From assembly GCA_003647275.1 (NCBI GenBank), contig QMMN01000015.1:1-45503 (forward strand): a stretch of DNA of 45,503 nucleotides, in the 5' to 3' direction. Below, piece after piece: positions 1,983 through 18,098 of this stretch. Position numbers and translations under genes: made by a program. How positions within the stretch are numbered: the stretch's first letter is position 1; each line of letters begins with the position of its first letter. The notes under the pieces were generated by a model, which searched no databases, was not told the DNA's origin, and was given only the letters and a program-made list of their open reading frames with translations. The stretch comes from Deltaproteobacteria bacterium (GTDB taxonomy: Bacteria > Desulfobacterota > Desulfobacteria > Desulfobacterales > C00003060).

Positions 1983-3050
1983 TCAGACATGGAGGCCAAA
2001 GGCTTCATACAACCTTTTAAAATTGATCTCTTCTTCGATCAGGCGAATACCGCAATAGACCTTCTCCTTTTCCTTAAGGCGAAGTTTGCATGAGAGCGCT
2101 TCCACCTTTTTTGCCACTGAATACGTGTCGTCCCGGACCACGACAATCGGTATACCTCTAATTTCAGCTCTGGAGATCACGATTTCATTCGGATAAAGGT
2201 TGCCGGTCAGGATGAGGCACTGGGTCATGGCTTCAATGGCGGCAAGTTGGACATCGGCCCGATCACCTCCCACAATCACGGCATTGTTTCTTGCCTTTCT
2301 GATATACTCAAGGGCACGGTCCACCTGCATCCCCCCGATCAAAAAGTGTTCGATCAGGCCATCAAGCTTATTACGGCAGCAAAGTACATCTCCGGCAAGG
2401 GCCTCCACAATATCTGCAATCATCACTGAGCCAAGCACGGCATCGTAGGGAAGTGAACCAAATACCGGAATACCTTTTCGCTCAAGAAATGGGATGATTA
2501 ACTCCTGGACATTCTCAACAGAACCTGCCTTGATGCTGTTCAGGATGACCCCAGCGAGGCGTTTTCCAAGGCGCCCGTGGGCATCCAAAACAGCGTCCAG
2601 ATAGAATTCCTTATCGTATCGGTCCACAAGAAGCACACGGGCATTGATTTCATCTATGAGGTCAAATCCGGAAATGTCAAAAGACTTGCCTGACTCCAGG
2701 GTGCCAGCGCCGCCAATAAGGACCACATCTTTTCCTTTTGACACGACCTCGAAGGCATTTAGGACCTTTTCCTGCAACCCCTGGACGCCGGTTCGGCATC
2801 CTTCAATCATCAAGTCGTGGGTCATCACAACAGGGCAAAGGGTTTCTGGGGGGTCTTTCAACATGAGCACCCTGTGAATGAACCAGGCATCCTTGTCGGT
2901 CAGCACCCCGTCTACCTTGATTGGAAGGCGCCCAAAGGGCTTGAAATAGCCGACCCTTAACCCATCCTTGAGAAATCGCTGGCCGATTCCCATAATCGTC
3001 AGGTTTTTCCCTGAATATCCCCTGGTGGACCCTACATAGATAGAAACCAT
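1983..3050 (-). CDS. Phosphotransacetylase-N-type (BioD-like P-loop plus DRTGG domain) protein
   Basis: The 355-aa protein begins with a P-loop of the BioD/phosphotransacetylase N-terminal type (STRGYSGKN, residues 8-16) and continues with a BioD-like fold to about 220. A DRTGG domain follows, seen in VGGDRADVQLAAIE and CLILTG (about 258-285). The catalytic phosphate acetyltransferase domain of full-length Pta is absent, so it is not itself a transacetylase. Such stand-alone proteins are thought to sense or regulate acyl-CoA/acetate metabolism, but the role is not settled. Its position 123 bp downstream of an ADP-forming acyl-CoA synthetase on the same strand supports a link to acetyl-CoA and acetate conversion. 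Confidence 0.82.
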   Translation of the reverse strand: MVSIYVGSTRGYSGKNLTIMGIGQRFLKDGLRVGYFKPFGRLPIKVDGVLTDKDAWFIHRVLMLKDPPETLCPVVMTHDLMIEGCRTGVQGLQEKVLNAFEVVSKGKDVVLIGGAGTLESGKSFDISGFDLIDEINARVLLVDRYDKEFYLDAVLDAHGRLGKRLAGVILNSIKAGSVENVQELIIPFLERKGIPVFGSLPYDAVLGSVMIADIVEALAGDVLCCRNKLDGLIEHFLIGGMQVDRALEYIRKARNNAVIVGGDRADVQLAAIEAMTQCLILTGNLYPNEIVISRAEIRGIPIVVVRDDTYSVAKKVEALSCKLRLKEKEKVYCGIRLIEEEINFKRLYEAFGLHV

Positions 3051-3087
3051 TGTTTTGCCCCCTCATTACTTCTATAGCGATTCAGCG

Positions 3088-3130
3088 AAGTGCCTAAAGT
3101 GAGCCAAAGTGAACTAAAGTGCCTAAAGTT
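3088..3130. repeat. Imperfect decanucleotide tandem repeat
   Basis: Four to five units of about 10 bp with core AAAGTG (variants AAAGTGAGCC, AAAGTGAACT, AAAGTGCCTA) lie between the synthetase and the DRTGG gene. They are followed by short AATCC/CAATC-type repeats to about 3168. Repeats of this kind are presumably non-coding. Confidence 0.6.
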
Positions 3131-3173
3131 GAAAATTCGAAATCCACAATCAAAAATCCGCAATCGAGTCACT

Positions 3174-5267
3174 TTACTCCTGTATGGTTATTCTGGCATC
3201 CACGGCCACTGCGCCCTGGCCCTCAGGGCAAACCAGGAGTGGATTGACATCCGCCTCAACGATCTCTGGACAGTCAATGGCCATCTGAGACAACCTTAGC
3301 AAGGCATCTCGTATGCCTTTGATATCGGCAGGTAGCTCGCCGCGTACCCCGCGGAGCAGCGGAAACGATCGGATATCACGGATCATCGCATCTGCTTCCT
3401 CCACACTCAAAGGGGCGATCCGAAAGGCCACATCTTTTAAAACCTCCACATAGATTCCCCCGAGGCCGAACATAATGATTGGGCCAAATTGCATGTCCCG
3501 TGTAATCCCCAGGATGACTTCCCGGCCCTGGGGTATCATTTCTTGAACCATCACGCCCAGGATACGTGCGCCTGGTTGCCGTAGCTGGATGTTAGAGGTT
3601 ATATGAAAAAAGGCGTCTTCTGCCATGGCCTCATTCTCAACTCCGACGCGAACACCGCCCATATCGCTTTTATGGAGCACATCAGGCGAGGCAATCTTCA
3701 TGACGACCGGATACCCGATCTCTGAAGCCATTTTTACGGCCTCCTGGGTGGTCCTGGCAATGCGACTCTCAGGGAGCCTGAATCCATATGCCTTTAATAT
3801 TTGGCGAGCCTCGCTTTCAACCAGATCCTGCCGGTGCTGCTTGACAACCGAGGCAAAGACCTCACGCACCTTAGACGTGTCTACATCAAAATGCCGGTAC
3901 TGTCTTTCAGGCTGTTCCCGCCACCGACGATAGGAAAGCATCGCATCCAAGGCCCCGACAGCATCTTCTGGATAATCATAGGCAGGGATGGCATGATCCT
4001 GGAAGATCTTGCGAGCATGCCTCACCCGCTTTCCTCCCATAAACGCGGTCATGATCGGTTTGTCAGTATCCTTGGCCAGGCTCACAATTTCCCGGGCAAC
4101 AGCCTCTGCGTCCACGGCTGCCGTGGGGGTCAGGAGAATGAGAACCGCATGGATGAATTCGTCATTCAGGATGACCGCCAGGGTCTTTTGATACCGCTCA
4201 TGAGTGGCATCGCCGATGATGTCGATGGGGTTATAGACCGAAGCTGTGGGCGGAAGAAACTCGCGGAGGCGATCTGCTGTTTCTCTTCGGATCGGCGTGA
4301 GGTGAAGGGAACTCCGGTCACAGGCATCTGCGGCCAAGATGCCCGGTCCACCTGAATTGGTAATGATGGCAAGACTCGGGCCTTTTGGGGGGGCTTGGTT
4401 GGCAAAGGCCATAGCATATCCAAAAAGGGCCTGCATCGATTCGGCATGGATGATGCCCGATTGCTTGAAAGCAGCACGATAGGCATGATCAGACCCTGCC
4501 AAGGCCCCGGTGTGAGAAGAAGCGGCCTTGGCTCCTGCGCTGGTTGTCCCCGACTTGATAATGATAATAGGTTTTGTTTTGGAGACCTCACGAGCCGCCT
4601 TCATGAAACGCGGACCGTCCTCAATGCTCTCCAGATAGCCTAGGATCACTCGTGTATTTTCATCCTGGCCCATGGAGAGCATGATCTCTGTTTCTGAGAT
4701 GTCCATTTTATTTCCCAGGCTTACAAACCTTGAAAAACCGACATTTTCCCCCAACGCCCAGTCTAGGATGGCCACACACAGGGCCCCGGATTGGGAGAAA
4801 AAGCCGATATGCCCGGCAAGGGGCATACCGGCTGCAAAAGAGGCATTCAAGGCGCTTGCCGTGTCGATAATCCCCAGGCAATTGGGGCCTACAATCCGTA
4901 TGCCGAGCTCCCTGGCCCTCATGGCCAGCTTGTTTTCCAGGCGCGCCCCCTCTGGCCCGATTTCCCTAAAGCCAGCTGTAACGACAATGACAGAATCAAC
5001 CCCCTTCTTGCCGCACTGCTCCAGAACATCCATGACCGCTGTTGCAGGCACGGCAACCACGGCAAGATCTATATCTGAAGGGACTGAAGCCAGATCTGGA
5101 TATGCCTTATGTCCCAGGATCTCTTGGGCCTTGGGGTTTATTGGGTAGACCGTACCACCATAACCGTACTGGAGGATATTGTTCAAAATGTCATAGCCGA
5201 TTTTGGCAGGGTTTTGCGAGGCCCCGATCACAGCCACGGAGGATGGATTAAAAAAGTGTTGTAGCAT
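3174..5267 (-). CDS. Acyl-CoA synthetase (ADP-forming), fused alpha-beta chain
   Basis: Enzymes of this family interconvert acyl-CoA + ADP + phosphate with acid + CoA + ATP and act in the cytoplasm. The 697-aa chain has a CoA-binding Rossmann domain (about 1-130, with FNPSSVAVIGAS near the start), a succinyl-CoA-ligase-like region with the phospho-His motif SSHTGALAG (about 250-258), a second flavodoxin-like ligase region (to about 450), and an ATP-grasp domain (about 475-697; GYPVVMKIASPDVLHKSD, MVQEM and EADVNPLL). Length and order match single-chain family members. The substrate (acetate, aryl acids or others) cannot be read from sequence. It is first in a minus-strand run with the DRTGG protein. 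Confidence 0.92.
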   Translation of the reverse strand: MLQHFFNPSSVAVIGASQNPAKIGYDILNNILQYGYGGTVYPINPKAQEILGHKAYPDLASVPSDIDLAVVAVPATAVMDVLEQCGKKGVDSVIVVTAGFREIGPEGARLENKLAMRARELGIRIVGPNCLGIIDTASALNASFAAGMPLAGHIGFFSQSGALCVAILDWALGENVGFSRFVSLGNKMDISETEIMLSMGQDENTRVILGYLESIEDGPRFMKAAREVSKTKPIIIIKSGTTSAGAKAASSHTGALAGSDHAYRAAFKQSGIIHAESMQALFGYAMAFANQAPPKGPSLAIITNSGGPGILAADACDRSSLHLTPIRRETADRLREFLPPTASVYNPIDIIGDATHERYQKTLAVILNDEFIHAVLILLTPTAAVDAEAVAREIVSLAKDTDKPIMTAFMGGKRVRHARKIFQDHAIPAYDYPEDAVGALDAMLSYRRWREQPERQYRHFDVDTSKVREVFASVVKQHRQDLVESEARQILKAYGFRLPESRIARTTQEAVKMASEIGYPVVMKIASPDVLHKSDMGGVRVGVENEAMAEDAFFHITSNIQLRQPGARILGVMVQEMIPQGREVILGITRDMQFGPIIMFGLGGIYVEVLKDVAFRIAPLSVEEADAMIRDIRSFPLLRGVRGELPADIKGIRDALLRLSQMAIDCPEIVEADVNPLLVCPEGQGAVAVDARITIQE

Positions 5268-13153: not shown

Positions 13154-14032
13154 ATGCAGATACCTCTGCAAGACTCCGCCTATATTGACCTCCATATCCA
13201 CTCCACGGCCTCTGATGGTTCGCTCACGCCCGTAGAGATTATCGAAACTGCCAAAAAGGCGGGCCTTCGCGCCATAGCCATTACAGATCACGATACCCTT
13301 GATGGCTCGGTTGAGGCCTTGCAGTACCAGCATTCGTCTGGCATTGAGATCCTGCCCGGAATTGAGATCAGTGCCAACTTTGACTTTGGTACAATGCATA
13401 TATTGGGTTACCTAATCCGCTTGGATGACGTTTCTTTGAGACAGACCCTAAAGGTCATCCAAGAAGGACGGGCCAGCAGAAACATCCAGATCATAAAAAG
13501 GCTTCAAGGTCTCGGAATTGATATAAGCCATGATGAGGTCTCAGAGGCTTCGGGCGGGGGCCAGATTGGAAGACCCCATATCGCTCAGGTGCTGGTCAAC
13601 AAAAGGATTGTTCAAAATATTGATGAGGCCTTTAATAAGTTTTTAAGAAAAGGTCGTCCCGCCTATGTCAAAAGATACCGACTTGCGCCTGCGGAGGCAA
13701 TCCAGGCGATTTTGCGGGCCGGAGGCGTCCCTGTGCTGGCTCACCCCTTTACCCTGAATGAAAAGACCGAGGGGGGGCTGGATAGAATACTTGCTGACTT
13801 GAAGCAGGACGGGTTAAAAGGCGTGGAGGTCTACTATCCAGACCATGGACCTGATCTCACTGCCCAATATCAACGCCTTGCCCATCGCCACGAGCTCCTT
13901 ATGACAGGCGGAACGGATTTTCACGGAACAGCAAAGCCGGGGGTGTATATTGGGATCGGAAAAGGGGAACTGAGGATACCATACCGGCTCGTGGAGGCGC
14001 TCAAGCAAAGCGCTAGCCAAACACCATCTTAA
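13154..14032 (+). CDS. PHP domain phosphoesterase (YciV/RNase AM-like)
   Basis: The 292-aa protein begins with DLHIHSTASDGSLTP (about residues 12-26) and ITDHDTLDG, the first two metal-binding motifs of the PHP superfamily. GIEIS, a mid-chain GRPHIAQ and LAHPF continue the set, and TGGTDFHG gives the C-terminal motif. Relatives hydrolyse 3',5'-nucleoside bisphosphates or trim short RNA 5' ends. Length and motif order fit the YciV group. It lies 17 bp downstream of dksA. The call is firm at family level; substrate is by homology only. Confidence 0.9.
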   Translation: MQIPLQDSAYIDLHIHSTASDGSLTPVEIIETAKKAGLRAIAITDHDTLDGSVEALQYQHSSGIEILPGIEISANFDFGTMHILGYLIRLDDVSLRQTLKVIQEGRASRNIQIIKRLQGLGIDISHDEVSEASGGGQIGRPHIAQVLVNKRIVQNIDEAFNKFLRKGRPAYVKRYRLAPAEAIQAILRAGGVPVLAHPFTLNEKTEGGLDRILADLKQDGLKGVEVYYPDHGPDLTAQYQRLAHRHELLMTGGTDFHGTAKPGVYIGIGKGELRIPYRLVEALKQSASQTPS

Positions 14033-14049
14033 GAGGCGTGTTGATTCTT

Positions 14050-14166
14050 GCCTTCATGACCGCCTTTTCAAGATGATGGACCAAGCCAAAATTTGTGCGC
14101 GTGAAAAGCCGCTGACGCCTTTTCACTTTTGGCGCAATCGCCTTATCTTGGCCCTTGACGAAGGCC
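14050..14166. repeat. Long imperfect palindrome after the PHP gene
   Basis: Nested complementary blocks run outward from the centre: GTGAAAAG (14101-14108) with CTTTTCAC (14119-14126), CCAAG with CTTGG, AAGAT with ATCTT, and GCCTTC (14050-14055) with GAAGGC. The whole can fold into one hairpin of about 117 nt. It may be a small MITE-like element or an RNA structure ending the dksA-PHP transcript. Confidence 0.5.
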
Positions 14167-14183
14167 CTCGAACTTACTATTGA
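14155..14183 (+). promoter_or_regulatory. Candidate sigma-70 promoter of the metal-uptake operon
   Basis: TTGACG (14155-14160), a 17-bp spacer and TATTGA (14178-14183) would start transcription about 120 nt upstream of the first operon gene. The -10 match is moderate. The predicted leader holds two hairpins. Confidence 0.35.
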
Positions 14184-14194
14184 GGTTACAAAAT

Positions 14195-14299
14195 CAGGAG
14201 CTGAAGCTCCTGGGCGGTGTTAAAGGTTTTACATAAAGAAACATTGTGCCACGAAGGCAAATGATCATCAGAAGATGGTAGGCCTCGTGGCTTTTTTTT
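14195..14299 (+). terminator. Leader with intrinsic terminator (possible attenuator)
   Basis: The leader contains the hairpin CAGGAGC-TGAA-GCTCCTG (14195-14212). Then comes a strong stem formed by GCCACGAAGGC (14248-14258) and GCCTCGTGGC (14282-14291), directly followed by eight T (14292-14299). The terminator ends 14 bp before the start codon of the NikK-like gene, just ahead of its AAAGGGGG ribosome-binding site. It would block the operon unless relieved, which suggests attenuation or a metal or cofactor riboswitch. I could not match a known riboswitch consensus. Confidence 0.6.
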
Positions 14300-14313
14300 G
14301 AAAGGGGGCATAG

Positions 14314-15096
14314 ATGAAAAAAGGTTGTTTTATTGCAGCAGCATGGCTGGGGGTGCTTATTCTTTCCCTTGCGGTGGCAGGTCCGGCTTCAGCGCACTTT
14401 GGGATGGTCATCCCGTCAGATCAGATGGTGATGCAGGGGGAGGATACAGTCATTAAAATAGATCTCATGTTCTGGCATCCCTTTGAGGGTATTGGCATGG
14501 AACTGGTTAAACCTGCCAAGTTTGGCGTGGTGATCAATGGTAGGGAGACAGACTTGCTAGGCTCCCTCAGACCTACCAAAACAAAGGGACATCAGACATG
14601 GACCACAAGCTACAAGATAAAGCGACCTGGTGTTTACATGTTTTATATGGAGCCTCAGCCTTACTGGGAACCGGCAGAAGACTGCTACATCATCCATTAC
14701 ACAAAAGCGGTGGTAACCGCCTGTGGTGATGATGAGGGTTGGGATGAAGAGATTGGGCTTGAGACCGAAATCGTTCCCATATCCAAACCTTATGGCCTTT
14801 ACACCGGTAATGTCTTCCAGGGGATCGTAAAACTAAACGGCAAACCTGTACCCTATGCAGAAGTTGAGGTCGAGTACTACAATAAGGATGGCAAATGTAG
14901 CGCTCCTACCGATTACATGGTGACTCAGACCATCAAGGCAGACCAAAACGGGGTGTTTACCTATGCCGCGCCCAGGGCTGGCTGGTGGGGCTTTGCTGCC
15001 TTGAACACCTCGGACGCCAAGATGAAGTATAACGGACAAGACAAGGACGTTGAGTTGGGGGCTGTCCTCTGGGTCAAATTTCACGACATGAAGTAG
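14314..15096 (+). CDS. DUF4198 periplasmic protein, NikK-like
   Basis: The 260-aa product has a clear signal peptide (hydrophobic core about 6-24, cleavage after GPASA) so that the mature protein starts with histidine (HFGMVIPSD). An exposed N-terminal His is typical of NikK-like metal-binding partners of ECF importers. The body is a beta-rich DUF4198 fold with a repeated Ig-like segment (VKLNGKPVPYAEVEVEYYN, about 175-193). It is the first gene of the cluster, behind the terminator-bearing leader, and probably hands nickel or cobalt to the membrane component CbiM/NikM. Confidence 0.85.
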   Translation: MKKGCFIAAAWLGVLILSLAVAGPASAHFGMVIPSDQMVMQGEDTVIKIDLMFWHPFEGIGMELVKPAKFGVVINGRETDLLGSLRPTKTKGHQTWTTSYKIKRPGVYMFYMEPQPYWEPAEDCYIIHYTKAVVTACGDDEGWDEEIGLETEIVPISKPYGLYTGNVFQGIVKLNGKPVPYAEVEVEYYNKDGKCSAPTDYMVTQTIKADQNGVFTYAAPRAGWWGFAALNTSDAKMKYNGQDKDVELGAVLWVKFHDMK

Positions 15097-15317: not shown

Positions 15318-15965
15318 ATGCATATCTCGGAAGGGGTTTTATCTCCAGGCGTTCTCATAGCAGGCGCAGGCCTCACAGCAGCAGGCGTTGCTGTTGGTTT
15401 AAGAAGGCTTGAGAATGAAGAAATACCATCCGTAGGAATCCTATCTGCGGCCTTTTTTGTGGCCTCACTGGTCCATGTACCTGTTGGCCCTTCTTCGGTC
15501 CACCTGATCTTGAACGGCCTGTTAGGCCTGATCCTAGGCTGGAAGGCCTTTCCCGCTATCTTGGTTGGCCTGGCTCTCCAGGCCCTTCTGTTCCAGTTTG
15601 GGGGGATCACAACGCTTGGTGTCAACACCCTGAACATGGCTCTTCCTGCTGTCGTATGCCACTATTTGTTCAGTTGGGGTGTGGGGATTGGTGCTAGGCG
15701 GCTTGTCTTCATCCTCTCTGCTTTTGCGGGCGGCTGTTGCGCAGTTTTTCTTAGCAGCATGCTAGTGGGGTTTTCTCTATATTTGACTGGCGAGGCTTTC
15801 TTGCCTGTGGCCAAAGTGGTGGTTGCAGCCCATTTACCCGTGATGGTCATTGAGGGGGGCTTGACAGCTGTTTGCGCCCTGTTTCTCAGACAGGTAAAAC
15901 CGGAATTATTGGAGGGAGCATATGTGCCAAAACTGTCATCGCAGCCACAGAATGGCTCGGGGTAG
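15318..15965 (+). CDS. cbiM: Nickel/cobalt ECF transporter substrate-specific component (CbiM/NikM)
   Basis: The 215-aa integral membrane protein starts with MHISEGVLSP; in this family the N-terminal Met-His pair forms part of the metal site, with more ligands from helix loops (His53 and His62 are candidates here). Five to seven hydrophobic helices follow, including GITTLGVNTLNMALPA, a family hallmark. It lacks a fused CbiN/NikN domain, consistent with separate K and L type partners nearby. The 220-bp gap before it contains short GTTGTT-type repeats. The metal is inferred as nickel or cobalt. Confidence 0.92.
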   Translation: MHISEGVLSPGVLIAGAGLTAAGVAVGLRRLENEEIPSVGILSAAFFVASLVHVPVGPSSVHLILNGLLGLILGWKAFPAILVGLALQALLFQFGGITTLGVNTLNMALPAVVCHYLFSWGVGIGARRLVFILSAFAGGCCAVFLSSMLVGFSLYLTGEAFLPVAKVVVAAHLPVMVIEGGLTAVCALFLRQVKPELLEGAYVPKLSSQPQNGSG

Positions 15966-16596
15966 GCGTCTGTTTTTTTGCCTTCTCTTTACAGCCTTAT
16001 GGCTCGTATTTTTCAATGCACCTGCATTGGCCCACAAGGTTATGATCTTTGCCTGGGTAGAGGGAGATACGATCCACACTCAGAGCAAGTTTAGCGGAGG
16101 CAAAAGGGTCAAGGGGGCTCAAGTGCTCGTTTTCGATTCAGAGGGAAACCAGCTCCTGGAAGGGAAAACCGATGAACAAGGGGCATTTTCCTTTAAGGTA
16201 CCCAAAAAGACCGACCTCAAGGTTGTCTTGAGGGCCTCCATGGGCCATATGGCAGAGTGGAAAATACCGGCCGAGGAGATCACCGCAGTGGGTGACGTGT
16301 CCGGAGGCAGTCTCCCTGAAGTTGGGGTTAAAGTCGCCACTGAAGAGGCTGCCCATTCAACAGACGTCAGGTCAAGTGGGGGGCTGTCTGTTCCAGAGAC
16401 GATGGGCCTGTCCCGGCAGGAGGTCGAGGAGATCATCAATAAGTGCTTGGACAGAAAGCTCACGCCAATCATCGATATGCTGGTTAACGCCATGGATCGT
16501 GGCCCCAAAGTGACCGAGGTGATAGGTGGCATAGGCTATATCTTCGGCCTTGTGGGGGTGGCCTTGTATTTTGCAAACCGTCGAAAAAGGGAATAG
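15922..16596 (+). CDS. NikL-like periplasmic/membrane component of the ECF importer
   Basis: The start at 15922 has a strong GGAGGG site and lies within the last 44 bp of cbiM. The 224-aa product has a signal anchor (about 16-36, ending in APALA) so that the mature part begins with HKVMIFAW. A carboxypeptidase-regulatory-like beta domain follows (GAQVLVFDSEGNQL, about 55-68), then a linker with a predicted helix (LSRQEVEEIINKCLDRK), and a C-terminal membrane helix (about 198-218) followed by NRRKRE. This matches NikL-type partners that stabilise or load the CbiM/NikM component. Confidence 0.82.
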   Translation: MCQNCHRSHRMARGRRLFFCLLFTALWLVFFNAPALAHKVMIFAWVEGDTIHTQSKFSGGKRVKGAQVLVFDSEGNQLLEGKTDEQGAFSFKVPKKTDLKVVLRASMGHMAEWKIPAEEITAVGDVSGGSLPEVGVKVATEEAAHSTDVRSSGGLSVPETMGLSRQEVEEIINKCLDRKLTPIIDMLVNAMDRGPKVTEVIGGIGYIFGLVGVALYFANRRKRE

Positions 16597-16605
16597 CTCA
16601 ACCAA

Positions 16606-17364
16606 GTGATTGTGAAAGAATTTGCCGCTGGTGATTCCTTGATTCAGCGCCTTGATCCTCGCGTCAAGATTGTCGTCGCAACCCTTTTCTCTGTTGTCGT
16701 GGCCGTTTCGACTCAATGGGTGGTTCTGGTATTGGCCCTGGCTTTGGGGTTTTGCATTGTACAGGTGGCTGGCGTGCCGATGAAGGAACTCATCCGCCGA
16801 CTGGTTCCGGTTAACGGGCTGATCACTTTTTTGTGGTTTTTTCTCCCCTTCACCTTTGAAGGTGAATCCCTCTTTTCAATAGGTCCACTGGTTGCAACCC
16901 GTGAGGGGGTATACTATGTCGCCCGGATCAGCATCAAATCTAACGCTATCATGGTCGTCTTGATTACACTGATTGCCTCAACCTCCATCTTTACCTTGGG
17001 CCATGCCATGTATGAACTAGGAATTCCCAAAAAGATCACTCACCTGTTTTTCTTTACTTATCGCTATATTCATGTCATGCACCATGAGTATCTCCGGCTG
17101 GTGAACGCCATGAAAATTCGGGGCTTCCGGCCAAGAACCAACATGCATACCTACAAGGCCCTTGCCTATTTAGTCGGGATGCTTTTTGTCAAGAGTTACG
17201 AGCGGGCCGAAAGGGTTTACAATGCCATGCTGTGCCGGGGGTTCAGAGGAAGACTTTATAGCCTCAGTCAGTTTTCCATGAAGACCATTGATATCATTTT
17301 CCTCATTTTGATGCTGGCTGTCATTCTGGGATTGGTGGTATTGGAGTGGACAAGAATAGCCTGA
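16606..17364 (+). CDS. cbiQ: Energy-coupling factor transmembrane protein (CbiQ/NikQ)
   Basis: The 252-aa protein (GTG start) is the T-component that links the substrate-binding part to the ATPase. It has RLDPRVKIV near the N-terminus, four to six membrane helices, and the cytoplasmic coupling motifs AMKIRGFRPR and AMLCRGFRG, both of the A-R-G type typical of this family. The gene starts 9 bp after nikL and overlaps cbiO by 19 bp. Confidence 0.94.
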   Translation: MIVKEFAAGDSLIQRLDPRVKIVVATLFSVVVAVSTQWVVLVLALALGFCIVQVAGVPMKELIRRLVPVNGLITFLWFFLPFTFEGESLFSIGPLVATREGVYYVARISIKSNAIMVVLITLIASTSIFTLGHAMYELGIPKKITHLFFFTYRYIHVMHHEYLRLVNAMKIRGFRPRTNMHTYKALAYLVGMLFVKSYERAERVYNAMLCRGFRGRLYSLSQFSMKTIDIIFLILMLAVILGLVVLEWTRIA

Positions 17365-18098
17365 TTATAAATCTGATGGATGTAACTTTTGCCTATCCGG
17401 GCGGCGCCCCTGTGCTCGATGAACTCAACTTGCAATTACACCAGGGGGAGCGCATGGGCCTGATGGGACCCAATGGGAGCGGCAAGACTACCCTGCTTCA
17501 TATTATCATGGGGCTTTTGAAACCCTCGTCGGGCAATATCGAAATTTTCGGCAAAACCGTCAGGCAGGAGAAAGACTTTCGAAGTGTCCGGCAAAGAATT
17601 GGCCTTCTTTTTCAGGATGCGGATGACCAGTTGTTTACGCCCACGGTCTTGGAGGATGTGGCCTTTGGTCCCCTGAATTTGGGTAAATCTCAGGATGAAG
17701 CCAGGACCGTTGCCCGAAAGACATTGGCGTCCCTGGGCCTGACGGGATTTGAGCACAGGATGACTTATAAGCTCTCCGGCGGGGAAAAAAAACTTGTGGC
17801 CCTGGCCACAGTTCTTGCCATGGAACCAGAGGTTCTGCTCCTGGACGAACCAACTGCTGGTCTGGATGAGACAACGGAAAAAAGGATCATCGACATCCTA
17901 AAAGGCCTTGACCTTGCCTATATCCTTATTTCACATAACATTGATTTGCTAATGGAGGCAACCCACCGTATCGGTTACATGATAAGGGGCAAGGTTTCAG
18001 TTGATGAGGAAAGAATCCCGCACACCCATATTCATATTCACGAGCATGGTAGATATGCCCATAAACATGGTCTCAAATGGCCAGACAAAAAATATTAG
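17346..18098 (+). CDS. cbiO: Energy-coupling factor ATPase (CbiO/NikO) with His-rich tail
   Basis: The 250-aa ABC ATPase (GTG start) has Walker A GPNGSGKT (41-48), the Q-loop region LLFQDADDQLF, signature LSGGEKK, Walker B LLLDEPTAGLD and the H-loop ISHN. After about residue 223 it carries a histidine-rich tail (HTHIHIHEHGRYAHKHG), a likely metal-binding or storage segment. It powers the importer and is last in the operon. The gap after it (18099-18408) holds no gene and one dispersed repeat. Confidence 0.95.
   Translation: MDKNSLIINLMDVTFAYPGGAPVLDELNLQLHQGERMGLMGPNGSGKTTLLHIIMGLLKPSSGNIEIFGKTVRQEKDFRSVRQRIGLLFQDADDQLFTPTVLEDVAFGPLNLGKSQDEARTVARKTLASLGLTGFEHRMTYKLSGGEKKLVALATVLAMEPEVLLLDEPTAGLDETTEKRIIDILKGLDLAYILISHNIDLLMEATHRIGYMIRGKVSVDEERIPHTHIHIHEHGRYAHKHGLKWPDKKY

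Follow-up and report, generated by a model that had tools for sequence, protein, structure and literature searches.

A conserved leader RNA, very likely acting by antitermination, ahead of the nikKMLQO importer operon in Desulfobacteria

Introduction

The window analysed here, the whole 45,503-nt stretch of contig QMMN01000015.1, carries a nickel/cobalt importer operon whose first gene is preceded by an intrinsic terminator, which raises the question of how the operon is transcribed. The window's genome is 96% complete, and about 4% of it may be missing. A sequence-only reading had concluded that expression must occur by antitermination or through a ligand-sensing RNA. This is supported by the present comparison, in which a trans-acting factor is favoured and direct binding of a ligand is not settled. 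The explanation as a whole is considered likely: the region 14155-14313 is the antitermination leader of a widespread and unrecorded family, which would be read by a factor under nickel shortage. No experiment has been performed, and the factor, the metal and the direction of the response are inferred.

Organization of the leader and the operon

The downstream genes had been described in the sequence-only reading as a nickel/cobalt importer operon, and this held; the importer is identified by Pfam and NCBIfam as NikK-M-L-Q-O. A PHP gene located upstream on the same strand ends at 14032. The features of the leader and the operon are as follows.

14155..14160, + strand: -35 box TTGACG, with TTGACA-like counterparts in the class (see below)
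14178..14183, + strand: probable -10 box TATTGA, with a 17-nt spacer from the -35 box (read from the sequence; counterparts in the genus)
14194..14213, + strand: HP1, promoter-proximal hairpin with an 8-bp stem, a UGAA loop and a C-G closing pair
14214..14247, + strand: variable linker between HP1 and HP2
14248..14258, + strand: HP2, GCC-ACGAA-GGC, putative antiterminator hairpin formed from the 5' arm of the terminator (folding and comparison)
14248..14299, + strand: intrinsic terminator (stem 14248-14291, T8 14292-14299)
14263..14279, + strand: HP3, inner hairpin of the terminator with an AGAA loop, compatible with both states
14301..14308, + strand: Shine-Dalgarno sequence of nikK (read from the sequence)
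14314..15096, + strand: nikK (DUF4198; Pfam)
15318..15965, + strand: nikM (CbiM family; Pfam, NCBIfam)
15922..16596, + strand: nikL (NikL family, NF058648; NCBIfam)
16606..17364, + strand: nikQ (CbiQ family; Pfam, NCBIfam)
17346..18098, + strand: nikO (ECF-type ATPase; Pfam, NCBIfam)

The general layout of the leader comprises a TTGACA-type promoter, the 5'-proximal HP1, a variable linker and a terminator that contains HP2 in its 5' arm. HP1 has the apical form C-(N)NGAA-G. The leader is described as having two look-alike hairpins because the 5' arm of the terminator, GCC-ACGAA-GGC, folds alone into an HP1-like form; the general form of HP2 is [A/G]CC-A(C/U)GAA-GG[U/C], with a loop of the same kind as that of HP1. 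The claim that a strong hairpin followed by eight T lies 14 bp before the start codon held exactly (14248-14299; ATG at 14314), the intervening 14 nt being 14300-14313. The further hairpin that had been noted upstream as 7 bp long also held, as HP1 with its 8-bp stem, and the plausible promoter held as likely. Transcription is inferred to start near 14190; the start has not been mapped.

HP2 and the terminator share bases and are mutually exclusive, as judged by sequence and folding only. The fold energy of 14160-14300 is -46.8 kcal/mol, compared with -32.6 ± 3.9 kcal/mol for shuffled sequences (z -3.65), and none of 200 shuffles was as low. During stepwise in silico growth of the leader, HP1, a linker hairpin and HP2 made up the best fold at 70-85 nt. 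HP3 was added at 90 nt, the linker rearranged at 95 nt, and the terminator stem emerged at 100 nt and was complete at 105 nt. HP2 together with HP3 has an energy of -9.2 kcal/mol in the window, versus -22.2 kcal/mol for the terminator; the median energies at the 59 loci that pass the strict test described below are -1.7 kcal/mol for HP2 and -21.3 kcal/mol for the terminator. No conserved leader peptide was seen by eye, the only way in which one was sought.

A plain consensus scan of the region gave 8 promoters (8.4 expected by chance) and 12 terminators (9.2 expected); it did not list the nikK promoter of the window and listed only the inner part of the nikK terminator. Since such a bare scan does not exceed chance, weight is placed on conservation.

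Conservation within the genus

NikK was found in 19 of the 22 genomes of the genus (E 1e-15). With some exceptions, close nikK orthologues with upstream sequence share a TTGACA-type promoter, a hairpin like GGGGCUGAAGCUCC, a variable linker and a terminator that starts with GCCACGAAGG. Insertions of more than 150 nt between HP1 and the terminator are found at two loci (L015 and L016). The leader was not seen by eye ahead of second nikK copies in the genus, which are 46-51% identical, and the upstream sequence of L013 was too short to judge. The pattern GCCACGAAGG-N10-35-CGTGGCTTTT occurs 27 times in 17 of the 22 genomes, with no occurrence in the backward control, and precedes nikK, cbiM, TonB-receptor-like and porin-like genes and others. 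A covariance model (R1) built from 32 terminators matches 20 of the 22 genomes (E 0.01). The window's genome has two R1 matches, the second ahead of an LbtU-family porin gene.

Individual genus loci deviate from the common arrangement. A repeat-like sequence replaces the stretch before the terminator, up to the contig end, in L011; a sequence is inserted between the terminator and nikK in L010; and HP1 is doubled in L019.

Conservation across the class

NikK was sought in 291 genomes of the class Desulfobacteria and found in 201. An unselected set was formed from the upstream regions of the 100 best NikK matches outside the genus, taken in rank order with the motif ignored. In a strict test for HP2 plus terminator, 59 of these 100 regions pass, any other loop triplet is found at most once, and 20 rounds of shuffling give none. 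The HP2 loops of the 59 strict leaders are ACGAA (52) and AUGAA (7). In 37 class leaders the HP1 loops are AGAA, UGAA and similar, and the HP1-HP2 linker measures 26-58 nt. The remaining 41 regions fail the strict test; 25 of them were inspected by eye, and some failures are variant leaders, bulged or with a different terminator arm, while others (L295, L299 and more) have no leader by eye. R1 matches 172 of the 291 class genomes (E 1e-3), but the model alone cannot exclude look-alike terminators among the weak matches.

When the demand for a third HP2 pair was dropped, 72 cores were obtained in 65 loci. The third pair is kept in 70 of them (A-U 40, G-C 16, G-U 14), is unpaired in two and is never A-C. 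This conservation supports HP2 itself, because the third pair lies outside the terminator pairing; the related sequences behind these counts are not independent. An alignment (A5) combined the leader of the window with 53 of the 59 strict ones, leaving out L248, L262, L313, L315, L318 and L319. The covariation of HP2 in A5 is 0.191, versus 0.122 for shuffles and at most 0.090 at slid positions. The A5 sequences had been pre-selected for three HP2 pairs, which flatters the score of the third pair, and HP2 pairs four and five are mostly not kept. The terminator is 95.5% paired in A5. HP3 is 84.8% paired, each of its five pairs showing changes on both sides, and its GAA loop occurs in 33 of 65 leaders, with seven other triplets at no more than 5.

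Strict HP1, with a GAA loop, is present in 45 of the 65 nikK leaders (next triplet, 9) and in 60 under a relaxed rule that allows one mismatch and has no control. In 42 of the 45 strict-HP1 leaders a TTGACA-like box (at least 5/6) precedes HP1 by 36-46 nt, which should place HP1 right at the 5' end of the RNA. In the interval 38-55 nt before HP1, TTGACA was found in 41 of 45 leaders, four permuted hexamers in 0-4 and CATTGA in 32; the last score is attributed to overlap with the real -35 box.

Other arrangements were also observed in the class. Four nikK leaders (L255, L258, L305 and L306) have an HP1-like hairpin, less clear in L305, and a terminator of the type AACCGCA...UGCGGUU without the ACGAA hairpin; these might have another specificity. 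The loci of genus g18 (L247, L254, L256, L260, L264, L266, L269, L271, L285 and L289) have an HP1-like hairpin and, in most of them, an HP2-like CAGCCAAGAAGGUUG; the scan finds no clear terminator after these hairpins, and NikR is encoded in six genomes of g18. L290 and L307 contain a second ACGAA/AUGAA hairpin within the terminator.

Distribution in other phyla and downstream genes

A scan of public species genomes gave at least 118 stretches, 80 of which are listed as loci. Some pattern matches in these genomes are surely chance terminators; from terminator numbers, chance matches on the order of one hundred would be expected among 85,000 genomes. HP1 was used as a separate check, under a rule of at least 5 bp, C-G closing and an (N)NGAA loop. 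The 80 loci contain 84 motif instances, which had been found without reference to HP1; 40 of these instances have HP1 in the upstream 152 nt, compared with a mean of 0.45 in shuffled sequences (never more than 2 in 100 rounds) and no more than 3 for each of the other 63 loop triplets. The other 44 instances lack a strict 5-bp HP1. Over all 118 stretches, HP1 is found at 59 of 122 instances.

The leaders precede TonB receptors, cbiM, nikA-like and larE/larB genes in genomes of Desulfobacterota, Nitrospirota and Clostridia. Phylum names were taken from record titles, mostly of metagenome-assembled genomes, and single cases may be misbinned. The Pfam tally of downstream open reading frames at the listed public loci (74 of 75 scanned, that of L109 being dropped for length) gave TonB plug 13, DUF4198 9, CbiM 5, methyltransferase 5, Phenol_MetA_deg 4, FmdE 3, ExbB 3, periplasmic-binding 3, FecCD 2 and TonB 2. 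Among loci with Clostridia-type titles, the pattern lies ahead of larE and larB in L106, larB and larC in the near-identical L155, larB in L141, and a methyltransferase gene followed by nikA- and nikB-like genes in L103. No HP1 was found under the strict rule at L106, L155 or L103; an HP1 closed by U-A is present at L103. Strict HP1 is present at L120, L146 and L150, which are titled Nitrospira, Nitrospirae or Thermodesulfovibrionales.

Within the Clostridia, the class of the L103 genome, leaders are followed by cbiM, larE, nikA-like genes and the gene of an ECF S component, and a second model (R2) matched 24 of 196 genomes (E 1e-4). The clostridial HP2 is mostly 5 bp long (AUACC-ACGAA-GGUAU and variants), and its pairs 3-5 are formed in 63 of 69 cells, versus 8-46 when slid (n = 23; L359 and L363 were left out, the core not being at the expected place, and L322 and L339 were added). 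All 14 genomes reached through motif loci, mostly non-Desulfobacterota by title, match at E 0.01, as expected by construction.

Several observations concern the genes near these leaders. Many clostridial genomes encode, downstream of the leader, a small ECF S component that contains an MHIP motif in its interior (L350-L372, e.g., L361:946-1482). One such component, scanned at full length, is Pfam ECF_trnsprt, and none of five compared with NCBIfam reached the cut-off. From the leader, a nickel (or cobalt) substrate is inferred for this component. A protein of about 300-360 residues without a Pfam match is encoded near it (L363:1733-2644; 14 of 20 large clostridial loci). Tandem leaders precede a single TonB-receptor-like gene in L331/L345. 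FmdE-family genes directly follow the motif in L128, L152 and L161, which is unexpected in a nickel regulon.

An alternative is that the hairpin merely terminates transcription of the PHP gene or a small RNA and that nikK is transcribed independently. The position of the PHP gene, on the same strand and ending at 14032, is in favor of this. Against it, a conserved promoter and HP1 lie between the PHP gene and the terminator, the T run leads straight into the Shine-Dalgarno sequence, and unrelated metal genes are preceded by the same leader. This alternative is practically ruled out. Read-through of the terminator should be the way in which nikK is reached, since its Shine-Dalgarno sequence directly follows the T run. 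Comparison of the leaders of homologous operons, whose lack of conserved structure would have refuted the sequence-only reading, revealed a conserved structure, and a real conserved antitermination leader is very likely.

Comparison with known regulatory RNAs

No Rfam 15 family reached the gathering score in the window or in 20 + 12 further loci. The NiCo riboswitch model was unmatched in the window at gathering and absent from a permissive scan of 14000-14340; the cobalamin riboswitch model was unmatched in the window at gathering, in the same permissive scan and in 32 further loci; and the guanidine-II model gave no gathering-score match in the window and 32 further loci. The sole permissive match in 14000-14340 was the Moco riboswitch, at 17.8 bits (gathering score 36) with an E of 0.084 and on the minus strand, and it was rejected. 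Because of the absence of Rfam matches at gathering, the leader cannot be counted among the recognised NiCo or cobalamin riboswitches; the sequence-only reading, which could match neither, had suggested that it may be of another class.

Searches of the open-access literature, outside which lie most subscription journals and all bioRxiv preprints, brought up no title or abstract opening that dealt with this leader, and the relevant sections of PMC545781, PMC11247825 and PMC13056359 do not mention RNA control of nickel genes. The leader family is thus unrecorded in the sense of being absent from Rfam 15 and the literature searched.

The NiCo (czcD) riboswitch has a four-way junction and precedes export genes. 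The nickel leader resembles it as a leader RNA at metal genes and differs in that it has no Rfam match, no four-way junction was seen and the genes are for uptake. Guanidine-II (mini-ykkC) RNAs consist of two hairpins with matching short ACGR loops and a variable linker, an arrangement shared with the nickel leader, whose loops, however, are NGAA and not ACGR, which has no Rfam match, which carries HP2 inside a terminator arm and which precedes nickel rather than guanidine genes.

The hairpins of guanidine-II RNAs dock with each other. A riboswitch in which HP1 and HP2 dock and bind a metal or a metabolite without a protein can likewise be considered. It is supported by the conservation of the loop sequence and closing pair in both hairpins while the linkers vary, and by the fact that neither protein family tested accompanies every leader. 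On the other hand, conservation in the loops is confined to a few bases, insertions of more than 150 nt are tolerated in the linker, and an uptake operon should go off with metal, whereas a ligand that stabilises HP2 would turn the operon on. The riboswitch reading is therefore unlikely.

Another known arrangement is the dual-hairpin antiterminator bound by ANTAR-domain proteins (EutV, NasR and AmiR), in which two hairpins with like loops are also present and the second shares bases with the terminator. The logic is the same, with two small conserved-loop hairpins of which the second excludes the terminator (PMC3369931), and ANTAR domains are found in 162 of the 291 class genomes. The exclusion of the terminator by the second hairpin is met in the nickel leader, by sequence and folding only. 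However, ANTAR proteins need hexaloops with A1 and G4, and eut leaders space their hairpins 5-12 nt apart (PMC3369931). The nickel leader has (N)NGAA loops of 4-5 nt and a linker of 26-58 nt and more. The spacing of HP2 and HP3 is close, but HP2 alone excludes the terminator. A search at E 1e-5 detected no ANTAR domain in the window's genome, in G018, G020, G078, G146 and G197, or in some other strong-motif genomes. The hexaloop, the hairpin spacing and the ANTAR-domain protein are all not met, and this rival was rejected as all but impossible.

Nickel as the signal and the occurrence of NikR

The leader is likely nickel-related. Nickel is favored over cobalt because lar genes and NikA are among the downstream genes; these genes do not separate the two metals cleanly.

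NikR represses nik operons in deltaproteobacteria (PMC545781) and likewise exerts nickel control over nikMQO/nikKMLQO, but it is a DNA repressor, unlike an RNA leader, and membership of the NikR regulon is not met in the window's genome, where NikR_C was not found. A NikR-box-like sequence at 14217-14244, which departs from the deltaproteobacterial NikR box at 3 positions, is set aside as probably due to chance, since no NikR was found in this genome.

NikR_C was detected in only 8 of the 291 class genomes. These are G012, a member of the genus without an R1 match, and seven genomes whose nikK fails the strict HP2-terminator test. NikR thus occurs with none of the 59 passing and seven of the 41 failing regions (Fisher p 0.0014), six of the seven being from one genus. 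R1 does match other loci in four of the NikR genomes (G131, G148, G220 and G223), and NikR and the motif can therefore coexist. Replacement of NikR by the leader is merely suggested by these data and remains a possibility.

Candidate factors: DUF3842 and CooT

Recognition of the leader by a trans-acting factor is favored over direct ligand binding by the RNA, as the more likely of the two. Clustering of the open reading frames of the 80 loci gave, besides transport families, DUF3842 in 9 loci and a 64-residue CooT protein in 6; other families recur too, including FmdE-like (8) and response-regulator (6) proteins. By pattern, the order leader-DUF3842-CooT is found in L129, L137, L140, L154 and L169, where a second leader then precedes cbiM (L129 and L154) or a Phenol_MetA_deg gene and cbiM (L137). 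DUF3842 is present in 18 and CooT in 17 of the 118 public-genome loci (861 kb), versus about 0.25 expected if one copy of each per 3.5 Mb is assumed. In clostridial loci, DUF3842 adjoins the leader in 8 of 23, and clustering found it in 8 of 20 larger, overlapping ones, in which a regular expression had found 1.

In many class genomes the genes for DUF3842 and CooT are tightly paired, the DUF3842 stop lying just before cooT; the pair in the window's genome lies on contig C107 at about 2929-3438. The structure model of DUF3842 (pLDDT 77) is Rossmann-like, and its Foldseek matches are generic Rossmann-like folds. No paper on DUF3842 was found in the open-access literature searched. DUF3842, often paired with CooT, is the best located candidate factor, a status that rests on its location alone.

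Each CooT dimer binds one nickel via Cys2 with a Kd of 9 nM, and the function of CooT is unclear (PMC6006190). CooT was found in 262 of the 291 class genomes, and it lies directly behind leaders in G007 and G020 and behind leaders in several loci. The reading in which this nickel-binding dimer is the antiterminator of the whole family is supported by its association with R1 matches in the class (165 of 262 CooT-positive versus 7 of 29 CooT-negative genomes, Fisher p 9e-5). This association is uncorrected for kinship or incomplete genomes, and nine of the 29 negatives were identified by elimination. Against this reading, CooT was found in just one of the 24 Clostridia genomes that carry the motif (whole-sample association p 0.48), and CooT is therefore not a general reader. 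Furthermore, among 70 cooT upstream regions (60 fetched and 10 from search loci), HP2 plus terminator was found only at L383 and L384, most of the other flagged regions that were inspected having hairpins within the DUF3842 coding sequence. The seven fold matches at E 0.001 or better are CooT structures. As the sole factor, CooT was a good fit in Desulfobacterota and failed in Clostridia, and this role is very unlikely. CsrA was considered as another possible reader; it needs GGA.

Proposed mechanism

A trans-acting factor that acts at low nickel is favored because HP2, which is weaker than the terminator, needs help to win. Transcription would start near 14190, and HP1 would form first, followed by HP2 and HP3. 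By default, the 3' arm would displace HP2, the terminator would form and nikKMLQO would be off, a step supported solely by comparison and by folding energies. Under nickel scarcity, a factor acting in trans, probably a protein, is inferred to recognise the C-(N)NGAA-G loops that HP1 and HP2 have in common, and perhaps HP3. The factor would hold HP2 and block the terminator, which would allow RNA polymerase to reach nikK. When nickel is plentiful, the factor would let go. The same device would coordinate nickel uptake and use through nikKMLQO, cbiM, TonB receptors, porins, nikA-like and lar genes.

Implications

A bolder reading, which is no more than possible, is that nickel-starvation antitermination is common to Desulfobacterota, Nitrospirota and Clostridia, where DUF3842, alone or with CooT, reads the NGAA hairpins and replaces NikR. 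If true, this would provide a function for DUF3842 and a regulatory one for CooT, and the clostridial ECF S component would be a nickel carrier. The presence of NikR in only 8 of the 291 sampled class genomes leaves the control of nickel uptake open in most of these Desulfobacterota. The common RNA leader would define a nickel regulon across phyla, would allow TonB receptors, porins and ECF S components that are so far unassigned to be attributed to nickel, and supplies concrete candidates, DUF3842 and CooT, for a new RNA-based metal sensor.
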